NCBI GenBank assembly: GCA_946616835.1
Contig: CAMOJK010000007.1
Span: forward strand, 1-45,904
Direction: 5' to 3'
DNA: 45,904 bases
Origin: an uncultured Lachnospiraceae bacterium
Lineage (GTDB): Bacteria; Bacillota; Clostridia; Lachnospirales; Lachnospiraceae
A program made the translations under genes and the position numbers. Shown piece by piece: positions 1,568 to 27,819 of the stretch; the first letter of the stretch is position 1; each line of letters opens with the position of its first letter. Below the pieces are notes generated by a model. The model was given only the letters and a program-made list of their open reading frames with translations, was not told where the DNA came from and made no database searches.

Positions 1568-3154
1568 ATGAATACAGAGCATAAAAAAACATACAACAAT
1601 CCCGTGCAGAGAGGCTTCTTTCCGGATCCTTCAGTGATCAGGGTGGGGGATGACTATTATATGGTCAACTCAAGCTTCCAGTATTTTCCGGCGATTCCCA
1701 TATCCCACTCAAAGGATATGGTACATTGGCATATCATAGGTCACGCGGTTACAGATACGGACTGGCTGGACTTAAGCGATATCAGGGATTCTCATGGCAT
1801 ATGGGCTCCGGATATAGAATATGTGGACGGGAAATTTTATATCTATGCAACTCTCAGATTAAATGCTGACGGAAAGCGTGGCAATAATGTGATGCGCAGG
1901 CAGCTTGTCATGGTTTCCGATAAGCCTGAAGGTCCTTACAGCAAGCCGGTGTGCCTTGAGGTGGATGATATAGATCCATCGCTTTTTATAGATGATGACG
2001 GCAGCAGATATATGATCATAGCAGCCGGGGCAAAGGCGGTACCGCTGTCAGCAGATGGTCTGTCTGTAGCCGGGCCTTTGCGTAATGTATGGTTCGGAAC
2101 GGGTGAACGCTGTCCCGAGGGTCCGCATATTTTCAAAAAAGACGGTTATTATTATGCGATGGTTGCTGAAGGCGGCACGGGTTACGGTCACGGCATCAAT
2201 ATGGCCAGAAGTCATGAACTGTTTGGAGAATACGAGGAATCGCCTTACAATCCGGTAATGAGGCAGACGGATGCTGATGCGCCGCTGCAGAGAGCCGGCC
2301 ACGGGAAACTTGTGCAGGACCGGAACGGGAAATGGTGGTGCTATTACCTTTGCGGCAGACCAAATAGCGGCAATTATACTACCGTTGGCCGGGAAAGCGC
2401 TCTGGATCCTGTGGAATGGACAGAGGACGGATGGTTTAAGGTCAATAACGGAAAAGGGCCGAGTACAGAGCAGGAGGCACCGGATCTTCCGGAATGTATA
2501 TTCGAAAGAAACCTGCATGATGATTTTGATGATCCTAAGCTTAATCCGGAATGGGAGTTTGTTCGTAATCCCGATAACGGTTCGTGGTCGCTTACGGAAA
2601 GGCCGGGGTTTTTCAGGATATGGACAAGAGACGGACAGTTAAATGAGATAAGGGCGAAGAATACCCTCCTGCGAAGGGAACAGGAGCTTTGCTATATTGC
2701 ACAGACAAAACTTGATTTTTCACCGGACCGTGACGGGGAGCAGGCGGGGCTTTGCTGCTATTATAGTACAGTGACATATATACGGTTTTCTCTCTGCTAT
2801 GAGGAAGGCAGGAAGATACAGCTGGTGATCAACCGCAATCACGGGGAGGAAAACGTTGCCACAATAGAAAATATACCGGAGGGTGCAGTTTATCTTAAAG
2901 TAGTGGTAAAATATCTGTGCCGGACTTTTTATTACAGTATGGATGGCACGGACTGGACTGAAGCAGGCACTGTTGCAGACTGCGTATTCCTTTGTGATGA
3001 GGGCGTTCCCGATGATCCCAAGCGCCATACCGGCACACTTGTAGGAATATATGCAAACAACGGCGGCTGTGGCAGCAGAAAACCTGCGGATTTTGATTAT
3101 TTTATTTATGAAGACCGTCCGGGATACTTAGAGATGGATGAACAATGGCAGTAA
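1568..3154 (+). CDS. Glycoside hydrolase family 43 (beta-xylosidase / alpha-L-arabinofuranosidase type)
   Basis: This is a GH43 five-bladed propeller enzyme expected to remove arabinofuranosyl or xylosyl units from oligosaccharides. The three catalytic acidic residues are visible: Asp in GFFPDPS (about residue 20, base), Asp in IWAPDIEYVDG (about 80, pKa modulator) and Glu in RCPEGPHIF (about 182, acid). From about residue 317 (DDFDDPKLNPEW) a C-terminal beta-sandwich of the GH43_C2/DUF1349 kind follows, giving 528 aa, normal for two-domain members. No signal peptide is present, so it acts in the cytoplasm on imported oligosaccharides. In a rhamnogalacturonan locus an arabinan or xylogalacturonan side-chain role is likely, but the subfamily and substrate cannot be read from motifs alone. 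Its end overlaps the next gene by 10 nt. Confidence 0.9.
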   Translation: MNTEHKKTYNNPVQRGFFPDPSVIRVGDDYYMVNSSFQYFPAIPISHSKDMVHWHIIGHAVTDTDWLDLSDIRDSHGIWAPDIEYVDGKFYIYATLRLNADGKRGNNVMRRQLVMVSDKPEGPYSKPVCLEVDDIDPSLFIDDDGSRYMIIAAGAKAVPLSADGLSVAGPLRNVWFGTGERCPEGPHIFKKDGYYYAMVAEGGTGYGHGINMARSHELFGEYEESPYNPVMRQTDADAPLQRAGHGKLVQDRNGKWWCYYLCGRPNSGNYTTVGRESALDPVEWTEDGWFKVNNGKGPSTEQEAPDLPECIFERNLHDDFDDPKLNPEWEFVRNPDNGSWSLTERPGFFRIWTRDGQLNEIRAKNTLLRREQELCYIAQTKLDFSPDRDGEQAGLCCYYSTVTYIRFSLCYEEGRKIQLVINRNHGEENVATIENIPEGAVYLKVVVKYLCRTFYYSMDGTDWTEAGTVADCVFLCDEGVPDDPKRHTGTLVGIYANNGGCGSRKPADFDYFIYEDRPGYLEMDEQWQ

Positions 3155-18215: not shown

Positions 18216-18266
18216 GTATCCGCACATTCCTGTGTGGCTTATCGATGTGACCATAGCCTCTTATGG

Positions 18267-18295
18267 TTGACAAATTCCCAAAAATGTTTTTTAAT
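18267..18295 (+). promoter_or_regulatory. Strong sigma-A promoter of the riboswitch-antiporter unit
   Basis: TTGACA (18267-18272), a 17-nt spacer and TTTAAT (18290-18295) give a near-consensus promoter. Transcription would start near 18301, exactly at the 5' edge of the folded leader. Confidence 0.8.
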
Positions 18296-18300
18296 ATAAG

Positions 18301-18443
18301 GACGTGTTGAGGGAGTAGCTTGCGAGCCTTTTTACACCGTGGTGTTTGGTTGAGGCTGCAGCGTGTTTCGTCAGGACGGGAAAGAGGCCGGTGATGATAA
18401 GGCCGGTTTCCCCGGAACATGTTTTAAAAAGCGAGACTTACAC
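18301..18443 (+). promoter_or_regulatory. yybP-ykoY family (manganese-type) riboswitch
   Basis: The leader has the yybP-ykoY landmarks: the L1 segment GAGGGAGTAGC (18309-18319), a GTCAG segment (18370-18374) and the L3 segment GCGAGAC (18431-18437). Helices found by eye: P1 GTGT-T-GAG (18304-18311) with CTT-ACAC (18437-18443); an arm with AGCC/GGCT (18326-18329/18354-18357) and ACACC/GGTGT (18334-18338/18341-18345); CGTGTT with AACATG (18361-18366/18416-18421); GGGAAA/TTTCCC (18378-18383/18407-18412) capped by GGCC/GGCC. The P1 3' strand is also the 5' strand of a terminator, so ligand binding would permit read-through (ON switch). Manganese is the known ligand of the class. The downstream gene is a cation antiporter. 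Class assignment is from memory of the consensus. Confidence 0.7.
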
Positions 18444-18473
18444 CATGGTTTTTCTGTGGTGTAGGTTTTTTTT
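18437..18473 (+). terminator. Riboswitch-controlled intrinsic terminator
   Basis: CTTACACCA (18437-18445) pairs with TGGTGTAGG (18457-18465), 9 bp including one G-U, followed by eight Ts (18466-18473). It shares 18437-18443 with riboswitch helix P1, so the two are mutually exclusive. Nothing else is evident between it and the antiporter start at 18604. Confidence 0.85.
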
Positions 18474-18603
18474 ATACCTCAGAGCCGCAGGTACTGTGGA
18501 TAACCATGCCGGTTCCTGTCTGTGAAGAAGGGAACCAAATGAAACAGCAGGAACCGTTACAGATTAGTCAAAAGGTCGTGCAGGCGCACAGAAAGAGGAA
18601 TGT

Positions 18604-19606: not shown

Positions 19607-21424
<1,818 letters not shown>

Positions 21425-21454
21425 ATGTGGTATGACTTCTTAAGTTACTAGCAC

Positions 21455-21695
21455 TATGTAAGTTCATCGGGTGGCTGTATGTTCCAATTCGGTAGCAAGC
21501 GACTGAAGTTTTGCAAGGAGCTCGGCGGCGCGACGCGACCCGGTTCATTAGGAGCCAAAGCGCCGTCCAAGTCTAGACGCCAACGGCGGATAGACTATGG
21601 CGACTGCAGCAAAACAAAGGTAGCGAGTGTTAAAACCGCTAAAAGCGGTTTTAACCTCGTGAATTGGGACTACAGACAGCTGATGAACGCAGGTA
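21455..21695 (+). ncRNA. Large structured non-coding RNA, raiA-like or new class
   Basis: About 240 nt between the LCP and MMPL genes fold into nested helices seen by eye. P1: GTTCATC (21462-21468) with GATGAAC (21682-21688). P2: CTGTA-T-GTTCCAATTC (21475-21490) with GAATTGGGAC-TACAG (21661-21675), 15 bp with one G-U. P3: GTTTTGC (21508-21514) with GCAAAAC (21609-21615). P4: CGGCGC (21526-21531) with GCGCCG (21560-21565). P5: AGTCTA-GA-CGCC (21570-21581) with GGCG-GA-TAGACT (21585-21596), containing tandem G-A mismatches. P6: a perfect 12-bp hairpin GTTAAAACCGCT/AGCGGTTTTAAC (21629-21640/21644-21655), extended by CGAG/CTCG. GGTAGC and GCGACTG each occur twice. GGGT (21469-21472) could pair with ACCC (21538-21541) as a pseudoknot. 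Size and complexity fit the raiA RNA class known in Firmicutes, but I cannot confirm the class. It could be a free RNA or a leader for the MMPL gene at 21737. No T-run terminator follows. Confidence 0.75.
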
Positions 21696-21736
21696 TATAG
21701 ATCAGTTTATACACAGAAAAGAGGATTGATGCATTA

Positions 21737-24352
21737 ATGGAAACCGAAGAAAACGAACAGGCCGCTAAACAGAGCCCAATGCTGAAGGTAGCCACCTTTA
21801 TAGTAGACAGGAGAAATCTATTTTTCCTGCTTTTTGCATTGGGCATGATATTCTGTGCTATATCAGCAGGATGGACAAAGGTGGAGAACTCCCTTGCGGC
21901 GTACCTTCCCGATACAATGGAAACCCGCGTGGGTCTGGATCTTATGGACGAGCAGTTCGTGACCTATGGAACCGCCCGTGTGATGGTCATGAATATTGAC
22001 CTTGATGAGGCAAATGATATCGCTGATGAGCTTAAGAAGAACAGCGATATTGCAATGCTTTCCTATAATGAAACAACTGACCACTATAATAATTTCTCTG
22101 CGTTATACAGTATTACATTTAATTATAAATCTGATGATGACAAGGCGCTGGAAGCATTGGGTAAAGTAGAGCAGAGCCTGTCGGATTATGATGTTTATGT
22201 TTCCACATCCATGGGTGATCCACAGGCGGCGCTGCTTGCGGAGGAAATGAAGCCTATACGTATCATTGCAGTCCTCGTAGTAATTACCATACTTTTTCTT
22301 ACATCCCAGACATATGCCGAGGTGCCTGTGCTGCTCATTACTTTTGGTGCAGCCGCACTGCTTTCCGCAGGTACAAACTTTCAGTTCGGAACTATTTCCT
22401 TTGTATCCAATTCCGTAACAATAGTCCTGCAGCTGGCGCTGTCCGTTGACTATGCGGTTATTTTCTGTAACAGGTATAAGGAGGAACACCAGACTCTGGG
22501 GATACGCGAGGCTTGCATTGTGTCTTTAAGTAAGGCAATACCCGAGATATCGTCCAGCTGTCTGACTACTGTCGGCGGACTGTTAGCCATGATGATGATG
22601 CAGTATGGTATAGGTTCCGACCTTGCTATCTGTCTGATAAAGAGTATCTTCTTTTCACTGATGTCGGTTTTCCTGCTCATGCCGGGCCTGCTGATGCTCT
22701 TTGGTCCTTTAATGGACAAGACCAAGCATAAGAGTTTCATACCGAAAATAGATTTTGCCGGTAAATTTGCATTTGCTACGAGAAAGTTTGTGCCGGTCAT
22801 CTTCATTGTTGTCATGGTAGTAGCTTTCTTCCTGCAGAATAAATGTCCGTACGTATTCGGATATTCCCTGCTGAAGACACCTATAAAGAATGATGTACAG
22901 ATAGCGGACGGGCTTATAGAGGACAGCTTCGGACGCAACAACTTCGTCGTTATGTGTTTCCCGACCGGAAACTATGAATCGGAAAAGAAGATGATAGCAG
23001 ATCTGGAGCGTGAGCCACAGGTAGATCACTGCATGGGTCTCAGCAATACCAAGCTGCTGGGGCACAACCTGACGGACAAGCTGACCGCCAGGGAATTTTC
23101 GGAACTCATGGACGTGGATTATGAAGTGGCACAGCTCCTTTACACTGCTTATGCGGTAAATGATGAAAACTATGCCAAGCTGGTAAACGGCATCAGCACA
23201 TATTCAATCCCTCTGATAGATGTGATCATGTTCCTGTACGACGAAGTGCAGGAAGGGTATGTCACACTTGATGACGATGTTTATGACAGGCTGAAAAAAG
23301 CCCATGACACCATGCTGGTACTCCGGAATATGCTTGAGGGCGAGGAGTATAGCAGAATACTGGTGTATTTAGATCTTCCCCAGGAGGGTAAAGAGACTTT
23401 TGCTTTCCTTGACCGCATGCATGAGATCGGTGAGGTTTATTATCCTGAAGACCAGATAATACTGACGGGTGACTCCACCAGCCAGCGTGACCTGAAGAAC
23501 ACATTCGCAAGAGATAATATCATCGTAACAGTGGGCTCCATACTCATAGTCCTGGCGGTGCTGCTCTTTACATTTATGTCAGCCGGTATGCCGCTGCTTC
23601 TGATCGCTGTCATAGAGGGTGCCATCTGGATAAATTTTGCAACGCCGACATTGCAGCAGAATAACGTGTTCTTCATGTGCGAGCTGATAGTAAGTTCCAT
23701 ACAGATGGGCGCAAATATTGACTACGCTATCGTAATAGCAGGACGTTTTATGGAACTCAGAAAAGTAATGGACAGGAAAGAAGCTGTCATAGAGACATTA
23801 AATTTTGCTTTCCCGACCATCATAACCAGCGGCTCCATGATGGTGCTTGCCGGTATGATCATCGGAAGGCTTTCATCCAACGGTTCCATCTGCGGCATAG
23901 GAAAGTACCTGGCACAGGGAACTATTATCTCCATCATACTTGTTATGTTCGTTCTGCCTCAGATCCTGCTCATAGGTGAGAGGATAATAGAAAAGACCAG
24001 TTTCAAAGTGTCGGTTCCCATAAGGCTCGACCGGGTACGCGGATATGTGAGGGTCGATGGTCTGGTGAGAGGACAGGTAAATGGCTTTGTTGTGGGTGAG
24101 ATGCACGGCGTGGTAAGAGGCGAAGTAAATGCCATCGTATCCATGGGCGGCATGTCTGCAGTAAATCCTGATGAAGTAAATCTCCTGCCGGGGGATGTGA
24201 TACTGCCGGATGAGGCAGGACCTTCGGAAGGTACAGAGGTTCCGGACGACGGAGAGCCATCGCCCGGAGAAGAAACGGTAAATGATGACAGAGTGTCTGA
24301 GAGCACTGCTCAGGCAGATGCATCTGACAGTAAAGGAGATGCAAAGTCATGA
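21737..24352 (+). CDS. MMPL/RND-family transporter
   Basis: This is an RND-superfamily membrane protein of the Gram-positive MMPL/YdfJ-HAE3 kind, 871 aa. It is built as two repeats, each with one membrane helix (first at RRNLFFLLFALGMIFCAISA, about 31-50), a large extracytoplasmic domain and a bundle of five more helices. The first bundle carries LALSVDYAVIFCNRYKEE and the second IQMGANIDYAIVIAGRFMELR, both with the proton-relay Asp-Tyr typical of the family. It would export lipids or amphiphilic compounds or energise an envelope partner. The last ~110 residues are cytoplasmic: first a V-x-G-rich repeat (residues about 760-800), then an acidic disordered tail. It follows the structured RNA, and its ATGA end overlaps the next gene. 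Confidence 0.9.
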   Translation: METEENEQAAKQSPMLKVATFIVDRRNLFFLLFALGMIFCAISAGWTKVENSLAAYLPDTMETRVGLDLMDEQFVTYGTARVMVMNIDLDEANDIADELKKNSDIAMLSYNETTDHYNNFSALYSITFNYKSDDDKALEALGKVEQSLSDYDVYVSTSMGDPQAALLAEEMKPIRIIAVLVVITILFLTSQTYAEVPVLLITFGAAALLSAGTNFQFGTISFVSNSVTIVLQLALSVDYAVIFCNRYKEEHQTLGIREACIVSLSKAIPEISSSCLTTVGGLLAMMMMQYGIGSDLAICLIKSIFFSLMSVFLLMPGLLMLFGPLMDKTKHKSFIPKIDFAGKFAFATRKFVPVIFIVVMVVAFFLQNKCPYVFGYSLLKTPIKNDVQIADGLIEDSFGRNNFVVMCFPTGNYESEKKMIADLEREPQVDHCMGLSNTKLLGHNLTDKLTAREFSELMDVDYEVAQLLYTAYAVNDENYAKLVNGISTYSIPLIDVIMFLYDEVQEGYVTLDDDVYDRLKKAHDTMLVLRNMLEGEEYSRILVYLDLPQEGKETFAFLDRMHEIGEVYYPEDQIILTGDSTSQRDLKNTFARDNIIVTVGSILIVLAVLLFTFMSAGMPLLLIAVIEGAIWINFATPTLQQNNVFFMCELIVSSIQMGANIDYAIVIAGRFMELRKVMDRKEAVIETLNFAFPTIITSGSMMVLAGMIIGRLSSNGSICGIGKYLAQGTIISIILVMFVLPQILLIGERIIEKTSFKVSVPIRLDRVRGYVRVDGLVRGQVNGFVVGEMHGVVRGEVNAIVSMGGMSAVNPDEVNLLPGDVILPDEAGPSEGTEVPDDGEPSPGEETVNDDRVSESTAQADASDSKGDAKS

Positions 24353-27300
24353 GAAAATTTAATTTAAGATCAGAAAATAAAATATCGCTTTCACGCATGG
24401 TTACAGTTCTTCTGGTAATTGTTCTGTGTGCAAACATTACCTTTGATGCACTGACAGTATCTGCGTCATACCGGATACCGGAGGGATATACGGAGTATGA
24501 TCCGGATGAAGAGAAAGAAGAAGCTGAGGATAAGGAAGGCAGGGAAGATGAAAACACCGCATCCGAAAATACACTTTCCGATAACGAAGCAAAGAAAAAA
24601 GAGCGCATAGAGATCAGCTCTCTGTCTGGGCTTCGTGAGCTTTCTGAAAACTGCCATGATAATACCTGGTCTGACGATAAGGAAGTGGTTCTGACTGCTG
24701 ATATATCCCTGACAGGATCGGATTTTACCTGCATACCGTATTTCAATGGTATTTTTGACGGAAACGGTTATAAGATAAACGGTTATGTATATGGAGGAGA
24801 CGGCTATGTAACGGGATTTTTCCGCTATCTGGGAGATGATGCCGTAGTCAGCAATATAAATATAGCCGGAACCATACAGGCTACCGGTGATGAGCAGGTT
24901 ACCGGAGGAATAGTCGGAATAAACAGGGGCCGCGTGATAAACTGTGAATTTATGGGCCGTGTGGAAGGCAAGTCCGTAACCGGAGGAATAGCCGGGATAA
25001 ATGAGGCAAACGGCGATCTGATCGACTGCAATAATAACGCTGCGGTAAACGGATATTATTTTACCGGCGGTATATGCGGAAAAAATTACGGAATGATTTC
25101 TTCGTGCATCAATAACGGTTCACTGAACGAGTCTGCCGAATGGATAAACGGCGAGGATGAAATGAACAGTGACGTACTGGAAATCTTAAAGCTTCAGTCG
25201 CTTAAGGAGATAAAGATACAGAGCGGCCTGGATACCGGAGGAATAGCCGGTCTTTCAAAAGGCCTGATAATAAGATGTGAGAATCAGGGAACCGTCGGAT
25301 ACCCTCACGCCGGCTATAATGTGGGCGGTATAGCGGGCAGACAGTCCGGTACTATCATCAGCTGCACCAATAAAGGCGAGGTAAACGGACGCAAGGATGT
25401 AGGCGGAATAGTGGGGCAGATGGAACCCTTCCTGGAGCTGGATTCTGCCGAGTCGCTTTCCAATTCCGTAACTGAGCTTCATGATATGATCGATAAGCTT
25501 TATGATGATATGGATGAAGGAAATGCGACACTCAGTGCGGACTTTGATCTTCTCAGGGATACAGCGGATGCTTCAGTGGATACCATGGATTCCCTCAGTA
25601 CCGGAGTAGAGGATTATGTCAATACGAATACTGACACCATAAATGATCTGGGTGACAGGGCTGACCAGGTAATGGAGATGGCTCCGAAGGTTGTGGACAA
25701 TGTGAATGCCGCTAGTAAGGATGTGGATGACTTAAACGAGGCCCTTGATGATCTGAGTGATGCGATAGACAGTATCACGGATTACAAGGGTGAAGATAAA
25801 AAGACAGTGGACAGAGAGCGGGACAATATAGAGGCGCAGCGTAAGATCATGAATGAACAGGCGGCTCTGACGGAGGAAAAGTCTAATGAGATTTCGGAGA
25901 TCACTGCAAAGTACAAAAGCAACCCGTCGAGAATGTGGACTGATCCGACTTCTGCGGAAGACAGGAGCAGACTGGTAAATGCCCTTACCACTCTTATGGG
26001 TGCTTATACAAAAGAAACAGATGCGATATCCAGCATAGCTGCATCTTCACTTATTCTCTCAAGGATATATGCGGAATATGCTTCTGACGGAGTGGAGGAT
26101 GCTTCCGATGCCATAGATGATGCTTCTGATGCTGCAGAAAAGGCAAAGAAAAGTGCGGATGTTGCACAGGAAGGCGTGGATGATATCGTAACCTACCTGA
26201 ATGCCGAAAAGGAGCTTGAGCTGGTAGGTATCAGCAGGAGCGTGGAGGACGATGCGGATGCGCTCAATGCTCAGATGCACCAGATGAGCGATATTCTGAG
26301 CCAGCTTTCAGAGCATGCTGATGATTATCCTGCTGAGGTAAATGATGATCTGAGGGATATAAATGACCAGCTGGATAAAATCTACAACATAATAAATGAT
26401 GACCTTACCCGTATGGAAGGCGGATTAGAGGAATACTACAGCGATATTTCGGAGGAGACGCTTCTGAAGGCTGTCAACGGCAAGGTGTCTTCAAATGTTA
26501 ACTATGGCAGCATAAACGGAGATATAAATGTAGGCGGTATAACGGGATCCATGGCCATTGATGAAAACGATCCTGAGGAGAATGCAGCAGGTACGGTTGA
26601 GACCGAGCTGGGGGGAAGGTATACCACCCAGAATATCCTTCACAACTGCATCAATCATGGATATGTGACTGCAAAGAATGACGGTGCAGGTGGTATCGCG
26701 GGCTTTATGAAGCAGGGGATCATAAACGCATGCTCATCCTATGGTCCCGTAAAGAGTTCCGGCGGAAGCTATGTGGGCGGAGTGGCCGGACAGTCCCTTT
26801 CCGTGATAAAAGGCTGCTATTCACTTTGTACTCTTGAGGGTGAGGATTATATAGGCGGCATAACGGGATATGGCACTACCATTTCATCCTGCTTCGCAAT
26901 GCCCCATATACCTGTAAAGAGCGGAAAGTGCGGAGCCATAGCAGGCCAGATCGAAATAAGCGATGATACGGAAGAGCTTATGCTTGAGAATGTTACGCTT
27001 AACTATTATGTAAGCGAGGATCTTTTCGGTATCGATAACATCAACTATGTGGGAGCTGCCGAAAGGATAAGCTATGAGGAACTGCTCAAGATGGGCAACT
27101 GCCCTTCGGATTTCAGGAACCTGAAAGTGCGTTTCTTTGTTGATGAAAATGTGGATGAAGATGAAGATGAGGATCTCAGGGAAATAGGAACCCAGGCACT
27201 TAAGTTTGATGACAGTGTCGACCTGATAGTTTATCCTGAAATACCCGAAAAAGACGGATATTACGGATCCTGGTCCGAGCTTGATACGGATACCATAGAC

Positions 27301-27819
27301 GGTAACCTGGTAATAATAGCGGAGTACAGAAAAAATGTGACTACTGTTGAAAGCAAAGAGCGTGAGAGTGCATCTTCGAACCGTGCGCTGGCACTGGTAA
27401 GCGGACAGTTTGATGAGGATGCGGAGCTTCATGTACTCAATAATGGTGCAGCGGATATAGCTGAATATCATAAGCTGCCATATAAAGAGATTACTTCATA
27501 CGCAGTGGAAATGATCGGCAGCAGCGGAATGGACGAGGATGGTACCCCGGTGGATGCTGTCTTAAGGATACTGAATCCTTATGACAAGAATATAAGGTTA
27601 TATAAGTATAACGGCTCCGGCTGGGAAGAGTGTGAATATCTGACAAGAGGATCGTATCTGGAGATAGAGATGCCGGATGAATATCCGCTGTACTGTGTAG
27701 TCCATGAGTACAACTACAAGCTTATAGCGATAATTGCGGCTTCCGGACTGGTGGCTATTGCTGTGCTGGTGTTTGTGACGGTGATGATAAAGAAGAAGCG
27801 TGGGACTAAGTCAAAGTAA
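24349..27819 (+). CDS. GLUG-repeat, coiled-coil membrane-anchored surface protein
   Basis: This is a large extracytoplasmic protein of 1156 aa. A signal peptide lies at about residues 11-40 (MVTVLLVIVLCANI, ending TVSAS). Two blocks of GLUG-type repeats follow (about 184-355 and 727-865), for example GGIVGINRGRVINCEFMG and GGIAGLSKGLIIRCENQG, predicted to form beta-solenoid turns. Between them, residues about 358-705 are an acidic helical region (VDDLNEALDDLSDAIDSI) resembling long coiled coils such as those in YhgE/Pip proteins. A C-terminal membrane helix (IAIIAASGLVAIAVLVFVTV) and KKKRG stop-transfer tail end the protein, so it is anchored at the C-terminus. The start overlaps the MMPL gene by 4 nt (ATGA), implying a fixed partnership. 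The function is unknown; a periplasmic-side scaffold or adhesin served by the MMPL protein is inferred. Confidence 0.82.
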   Translation: MRKFNLRSENKISLSRMVTVLLVIVLCANITFDALTVSASYRIPEGYTEYDPDEEKEEAEDKEGREDENTASENTLSDNEAKKKERIEISSLSGLRELSENCHDNTWSDDKEVVLTADISLTGSDFTCIPYFNGIFDGNGYKINGYVYGGDGYVTGFFRYLGDDAVVSNINIAGTIQATGDEQVTGGIVGINRGRVINCEFMGRVEGKSVTGGIAGINEANGDLIDCNNNAAVNGYYFTGGICGKNYGMISSCINNGSLNESAEWINGEDEMNSDVLEILKLQSLKEIKIQSGLDTGGIAGLSKGLIIRCENQGTVGYPHAGYNVGGIAGRQSGTIISCTNKGEVNGRKDVGGIVGQMEPFLELDSAESLSNSVTELHDMIDKLYDDMDEGNATLSADFDLLRDTADASVDTMDSLSTGVEDYVNTNTDTINDLGDRADQVMEMAPKVVDNVNAASKDVDDLNEALDDLSDAIDSITDYKGEDKKTVDRERDNIEAQRKIMNEQAALTEEKSNEISEITAKYKSNPSRMWTDPTSAEDRSRLVNALTTLMGAYTKETDAISSIAASSLILSRIYAEYASDGVEDASDAIDDASDAAEKAKKSADVAQEGVDDIVTYLNAEKELELVGISRSVEDDADALNAQMHQMSDILSQLSEHADDYPAEVNDDLRDINDQLDKIYNIINDDLTRMEGGLEEYYSDISEETLLKAVNGKVSSNVNYGSINGDINVGGITGSMAIDENDPEENAAGTVETELGGRYTTQNILHNCINHGYVTAKNDGAGGIAGFMKQGIINACSSYGPVKSSGGSYVGGVAGQSLSVIKGCYSLCTLEGEDYIGGITGYGTTISSCFAMPHIPVKSGKCGAIAGQIEISDDTEELMLENVTLNYYVSEDLFGIDNINYVGAAERISYEELLKMGNCPSDFRNLKVRFFVDENVDEDEDEDLREIGTQALKFDDSVDLIVYPEIPEKDGYYGSWSELDTDTIDGNLVIIAEYRKNVTTVESKERESASSNRALALVSGQFDEDAELHVLNNGAADIAEYHKLPYKEITSYAVEMIGSSGMDEDGTPVDAVLRILNPYDKNIRLYKYNGSGWEECEYLTRGSYLEIEMPDEYPLYCVVHEYNYKLIAIIAASGLVAIAVLVFVTVMIKKKRGTKSK

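Follow-up and report, generated by a model that had tools for sequence, protein, structure and literature searches.

A dispersed family of structured intergenic elements, with a copy in an LCP–MMPL gene gap of a Lachnospiraceae genome

Fold of the element between the LCP and MMPL genes

The window (the whole analysed stretch of 45,904 nt) contains a gap of 312 nt (21425–21736) between two genes of the plus strand. The upstream gene belongs to the LytR_cpsA_psr (LCP) family (19607–21424, Pfam PF03816) and the downstream one to the MMPL family (21737–24352, Pfam PF03176); both provide the context and lie outside the element described here. The element, one copy of a dispersed family, occupies 21454–21700 on the plus strand, as delimited by its fold, its helices and its homologous copies. 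An earlier note on this DNA had proposed a large closed structure in this place. The structure is real: the minimum-energy fold of 21440–21705 contains the helices of that note and has an energy of −108.9 kcal/mol; the shuffles average −75.2 (z = −6.53), and not one of the 200 folds as well. The reverse strand of the same segment folds more weakly (z = −4.56).

The element is closed by a 5' outer arm (21454–21490), whose sequence varies among copies while its pairing is constant, and a 3' outer arm (21661–21700), both defined by the helices and by the arm-permutation test described below. In the minimum-energy fold (all helices on the plus strand) the arms form an outermost 7-bp helix (21454–21460/21694–21700), which extends the element beyond the helices noted earlier, a helix containing the former P1 (21462–21470/21680–21688), a short helix (21472–21473/21677–21678) and the former P2 with its one bulge (21475–21479/21671–21675 and 21481–21490/21661–21670). 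The conserved core (21490–21623) is spanned by the covariance model R1 (96.2 bits, E = 7.3e-22). Its helices 21502–21504/21619–21621 and 21508–21514/21609–21615 flank a purine 3×3 internal loop, which corresponds to the tandem G-A feature recorded before. The terminal part of the core stem-loop (21524–21567, with helix 21524–21531/21560–21567) is near-invariant among copies according to the seven-copy alignment and the pair counts. Two more helices are found at 21570–21575/21591–21596 and 21578–21581/21585–21588; the alignments and the listing of copies identify 21573–21600 as a 28-nt insertion that makes an extra hairpin in this copy only (1 of 10). The perfect 12-bp hairpin (21629–21655; stem 21629–21640/21644–21655), extended by 21623–21627/21656–21660, is an optional module, as the comparison of copies shows, carried by 6 of 10 copies and at 4 of 8 loci.

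None of the Rfam 15 families (raiA, OLE, ROOL and GOLLD included) reaches its gathering score in the window, and none matches 21400–21760 even at E up to 10. Membership in the raiA class, one of the suggestions made for this RNA, is thereby not supported. Its alternative, a new class of structured RNA, still stands, the outer stem being found to covary among homologues (see below). Several finer details did not hold once copies were compared. The supposed pseudoknot (21469–21472 with 21538–21541) has its ACCC side kept in 9 of 10 copies, while the GGGT side, part of the variable outer stem, occurs in this copy only. As to the two repeated words, the first occurrence of GGTAGC reads GATAGC in 7 of 10 copies, and the second occurrence of GCGACTG stands at the edge of the 28-nt insertion found in 1 of 10 copies. 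The GC content of 0.47, thought to set the gap apart from neighbouring spacers, is matched by one other of the 11 spacers measured (18216–18603).

This other spacer, located upstream of a Na/Ca exchanger gene, is also strongly structured (z = −5.65); it has a promoter-like start and a hairpin with a T run after it. Its match to Rfam SSRC10 amounts to 25 bits (E = 0.012), under the cut-off of 56. A divergent leader of the metal riboswitch kind, comparable to yybP-ykoY, is a possible identity. After the MMPL gene, 24349–27819 encodes a protein of 1156 aa, the sole Pfam match of which, ATG17_like, is below the cut-off (32.5 vs 43 bits). No tRNA or tmRNA was found within the window. Protein coding in the 21479–21700 frame was considered and judged unlikely, as copies differ by indels and occur in both orientations.

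Dispersed copies and covariation of the outer stem

Six places in the genome of origin (G000), the window included, were found by blastn, namely five full copies and one fragment. The family is therefore a dispersed structured intergenic repeat with multiple copies per genome at unrelated loci. Matches occurred in 2 of 40 genomes of a first set of relatives (the genome of origin counted). R1 represents the 106-position core and was built from seven copies; its search over 35 genomes of the genus revealed copies in four of them (five in G000, two each in G008 and G040 and one in G042). In total the family comprises five full copies in the genome of origin and five in three close relatives, and these ten include two orthologous pairs, which leaves eight distinct loci. 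The carriers are a small group of related rumen bacteria. With stricter filters, an order-wide sample of 392 genomes gave a match in the genome of origin only. One exact loop pattern retrieved nine stretches from bacterial genome contigs. Four are true copies, from the Lachnospiraceae assemblies AB2028, UBA4364 and RGIG9225 (RGIG9225 comes from water deer rumen); the other five score at most 13.1 bits or have no R1 match. Lachnospiraceae bacterium AB2028 has two copies, the second of which was missed by the pattern because of a one-base difference in the loop, so diverged relatives would escape it too.

No blastn match at E 1e-5 was obtained among 72,556 plasmid and 50,697 phage records, and viral contigs gave no match to two core patterns. 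A 16-base word found 13 stretches in viral contigs, of which the best has a model score of 13.3 bits, and the rest of the element is absent from all of them. The copies in L016, L002 and L009 have no overlapping Rfam match at E up to 1. No description of the family was found in the literature searched (on TwoAYGGAY, Clostridiales-1, dispersed repeats and Lachnospiraceae).

The orientation of the copies relative to genes is mixed. Five of the eight loci are co-directional with both neighbours (the window, G000 C9, C1 and C12, and G008 C52) and three are antisense to both (G000 C11, G008 C27 and G040 C1b); one antisense locus is retained in full in two species. The immediate neighbours, as assigned with Pfam, include LCP, MMPL, glycosyltransferases, ABC transporter proteins, an FtsJ/S4 protein, NAD kinase, D-Tyr-tRNA deacylase, LytB/IspH, cytidylate kinase, HPr, GH32, a phosphoesterase and an aminotransferase, and no common function or constant gene partner is seen among them. 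The antisense loci and the unrelated neighbours do not agree with a cis-regulatory leader or riboswitch. By eye, the copies show no conservation on their upstream side, so no shared promoter is seen.

The earlier note had proposed checking in homologues whether the outer stem covaries, and it does. The summed duplex energy of the native pairings between 5' and 3' outer arms at the eight loci ranks first of 40,320 permutations in an exhaustive, alignment-free test (two orthologous copies, G042 C52 and G040 C1a, were omitted), and the same test on all ten copies gave 5e-6 with 200,000 random permutations. The own arm pairing is the best one, or tied with that of an orthologue, in 7 of 8 loci; the exception is G008 C52, with −31.8 for its own pairing and −32.9 for one cross pairing. 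Since a single alignment of all copies misplaced the hairpin-less ones, two groups were aligned separately. Pairing holds for 97.0% of cells in the core, and 5 of 29 pairs show changes on both sides, as counted in the 7 of 10 copies known when R1 was built and on a structure that came from this same alignment. The core covariation score of 0.187 was reached by none of 500 shuffles (0.074 after shuffling; relatedness not corrected for). Among the six hairpin-bearing copies both sides changed in 14 of 67 pairs, and the differences in the 12-bp hairpin stem between the orthologous copies of G000 and G040 near the NAD kinase gene (NADK) are paired changes. As judged from these comparisons of sequence, the fold of the element is under selection. 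A strand-symmetric alignment of the outer stems at the eight loci contains 208 Watson-Crick pairs, 9 G-T, 1 A-C and 21 other mismatches; the excess of G-T over A-C is a modest sign that the folded strand is the plus strand.

Orthologous spacers and the elements that share them

Presence and absence of the element were observed at orthologous sites (the IspH-CMK, DTD and HPr spacers). At the NADK site full copies are found in G000 and G040 and internally deleted ones in G008 and G042; this copy is old, since all four carriers have it and two of them have deletions in it. The DTD spacer contains the window family in G000 and G042 and a Clostridiales-1 RNA in G008 and G040 (106.5 bits in G008). 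In the HPr spacer the window family of G008 is replaced in G040 by a partial TwoAYGGAY-type element (L200, found by blastn, below the Rfam cut-off), the flanks being 96–98% identical. In the LCP–MMPL spacer itself, G040 has kept the 5' arm of the copy, which is followed by a TwoAYGGAY element (67.5 bits), G042 has a short spacer and a shorter LCP tail, and G008 has a different hyper-structured element of 239 nt (L086, about 2202–2440, minus strand; z = −10.2) to which no Rfam family corresponds at E up to 1. The fold z-scores of the three replacing elements are −9.7, −10.2 and −8.4 (60 shuffles each). At the IspH-CMK site the element is present in G040 only, among eight genomes in which both flanks were found. 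Alignment of G008, G042 and G000 against G040 gave neither a clean empty site nor a clear target duplication, the spacer being different in all four species.

Of 35 genomes of the genus, 7 were matched by the TwoAYGGAY query in blastn, one of them as many as 24 times with fragments counted, and 16 by the Clostridiales-1 query. TwoAYGGAY cores lie inside or beside the arms of window-family copies in L154, L210 and L215 (100.4, 88.0 and 93.7 bits, respectively). L210 and G000 C1 may descend from one ancestral site, as the genes that follow start alike by eye. Two Clostridiales-1 RNAs of the same orientation are located about 300 nt apart in L166 (1494–1672 and 1967–2137).

Between species, the element-bearing spacers of the NADK, DTD and LCP sites are 93–99% identical and the flanking genes 83–89% (L053, L054, L111, L112, L085 and the window). 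At the NADK site (G000 vs G040) the element has 202/217 identical positions and the flanking spacer 58/60 and 49/50, in comparison with 508/610 and 426/500 in the genes; at the DTD site (G008 vs G040) the Clostridiales-1 spacer has 184/186 and the genes 539/610 and 461/519; at the LCP site the spacer has 85/90 and the genes 426/500 and 351/400. The HPr site, where the flanks are 96–98% identical, departs from this pattern. This better conservation could reflect a cellular function.

Nature of the element and its relation to known systems

We favour, with somewhat better than even confidence, the view that the copies form a new family of mobile intergenic elements, small (about 180–250 nt) and non-autonomous, with selection acting on the folded plus strand. 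Dispersed copies in both orientations, their presence and absence, covarying stems, nesting with TwoAYGGAY and the sharing of spacers with TwoAYGGAY and Clostridiales-1 are direct observations. Small mobile elements without autonomy give the best explanation for the dispersal, the mixed orientation, the nesting and the way the elements replace one another. Such an element would be defined by its conserved core together with an outer stem that evolves fast yet is always paired. The plus strand would act as a folded single strand, most likely as RNA rather than single-stranded DNA, and the fold would be kept because the spread or persistence of the element needs it. Movement is presumably active, with the copying machinery probably supplied from elsewhere in the genome. 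Several findings count against this view: none of the sites compared is a clean empty one with a target duplication, the ends lack sequence conservation and so do not resemble those of ordinary MITEs, the NADK-site copy is old, which makes present activity of the family doubtful, the own arm pairing of G008 C52 is not its best, the partial element in the HPr spacer of G040 stays below the Rfam cut-off, and element-bearing spacers are better conserved than the genes around them at three sites.

It is possible, though unlikely in our opinion, that the copies are stand-alone non-coding RNAs with a cellular job, the core of which binds a protein or a ligand, and that the paralogous loci arose by duplication or recombination and not by autonomous spread. 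The compensatory changes in the conserved core agree with this, as does the fact that element and spacer are better conserved than the flanking genes (see the NADK site above). Moreover, two analogous families, TwoAYGGAY and Clostridiales-1, were rated as probable RNAs, not cis-regulatory, by Weinberg et al. 2010 (PMC2864571). Such a job is difficult to reconcile with the narrow occurrence of the family (4 of 35 genomes of the genus), with its decayed copies, with the filling of the same spacers by other RNA families and with the variable upstream sequence.

A cis-acting intercistronic mRNA element (a processing site, stabiliser, insulator or leader for the adjoining genes) seems more doubtful. 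TwoAYGGAY is typed as cis-regulatory by Rfam (Clostridiales-1 as sRNA), and co-directionality with both neighbours is found at five of the eight loci of the window family and, by mechanical ORF calls, at 12 of 18 TwoAYGGAY loci (L139–L157) and 9 of 14 Clostridiales-1 loci (L159–L178). Against it stand the three antisense loci, one of them intact in two species, and the lack of a common function among the neighbours. The narrower proposal of a leader of the MMPL operon, made in the earlier note, is not supported, because the element is a dispersed repeat, is antisense to both neighbours at 3 of 8 loci and lies in a spacer the content of which varies among relatives.

Least probable is a palindrome acting on the DNA level only, with arms kept complementary via cruciforms or template-switch repair in replication and no selection on RNA: quasipalindrome correction would yield arms that diverge far more than the core yet remain paired, as is the case here, but the multi-branched fold, the conserved core, the compensatory changes in inner helices, the prevalence of G-T over A-C mispairs (9 to 1) and the better folding of the plus strand relative to shuffles (z of −6.5 and −4.6) all speak against it.

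Returning to the small mobile elements, the occupation of the same gaps by the window family, TwoAYGGAY and Clostridiales-1 suggests that all three are of this kind. A bolder version, which we regard as quite improbable, is that these families are bacterial SINE-like RNA parasites, short and structured, that carry no genes and return to intergenic DNA via an RNA intermediate and a host reverse transcriptase. If true, it would explain the conserved RNA structure with variable paired ends, the occurrence in both orientations, the absence of transposon ends and the nested or mutually replacing copies. An undescribed family of structured elements is added by this work. It also yields concrete evidence that two catalogued candidate RNAs, TwoAYGGAY and Clostridiales-1, act within this genus as interchangeable mobile elements would: related species have them in the same spacers, and TwoAYGGAY is nested within or next to copies of the window family. 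It becomes a testable question whether such RNAs are regulators or small genomic parasites that spread through their fold.

Bacteria are known to have families of repeated stem-loops (PMC2267715), and TwoAYGGAY (RF01731) gained two covarying pairs in Rfam 15 (PMC11701678). Like the window family, TwoAYGGAY is a dispersed structured intergenic element of similar size in the same genomes; the two have one spacer in common (LCP–MMPL, where G040 carries TwoAYGGAY), and TwoAYGGAY is also found nested in or beside window-family copies. Its core and helices differ from those of the window element, which does not match the RF01731 model at E up to 10. Clostridiales-1 RNA (RF01699) is likewise a dispersed structured intergenic element and shares the DTD spacer, but its model is not matched by the window element and it is more widespread (16 of 35 genomes of the genus by blastn, versus 4 of 35 by model matches for the window family). 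REP, ERIC, RUP and bcr1 repeats and MITEs resemble the window family in being short, multicopy, intergenic, non-coding, foldable and present in both orientations. No partner transposase was seen with Pfam among the immediate neighbours of the copies. The ends of the window element pair but differ in sequence among copies, in contrast to the conserved terminal inverted repeats of MITEs. Finally, whereas stem-loop repeats and MITEs are simple palindromes, the fold of the window family is branched, its core conserved and its outer stem covarying.
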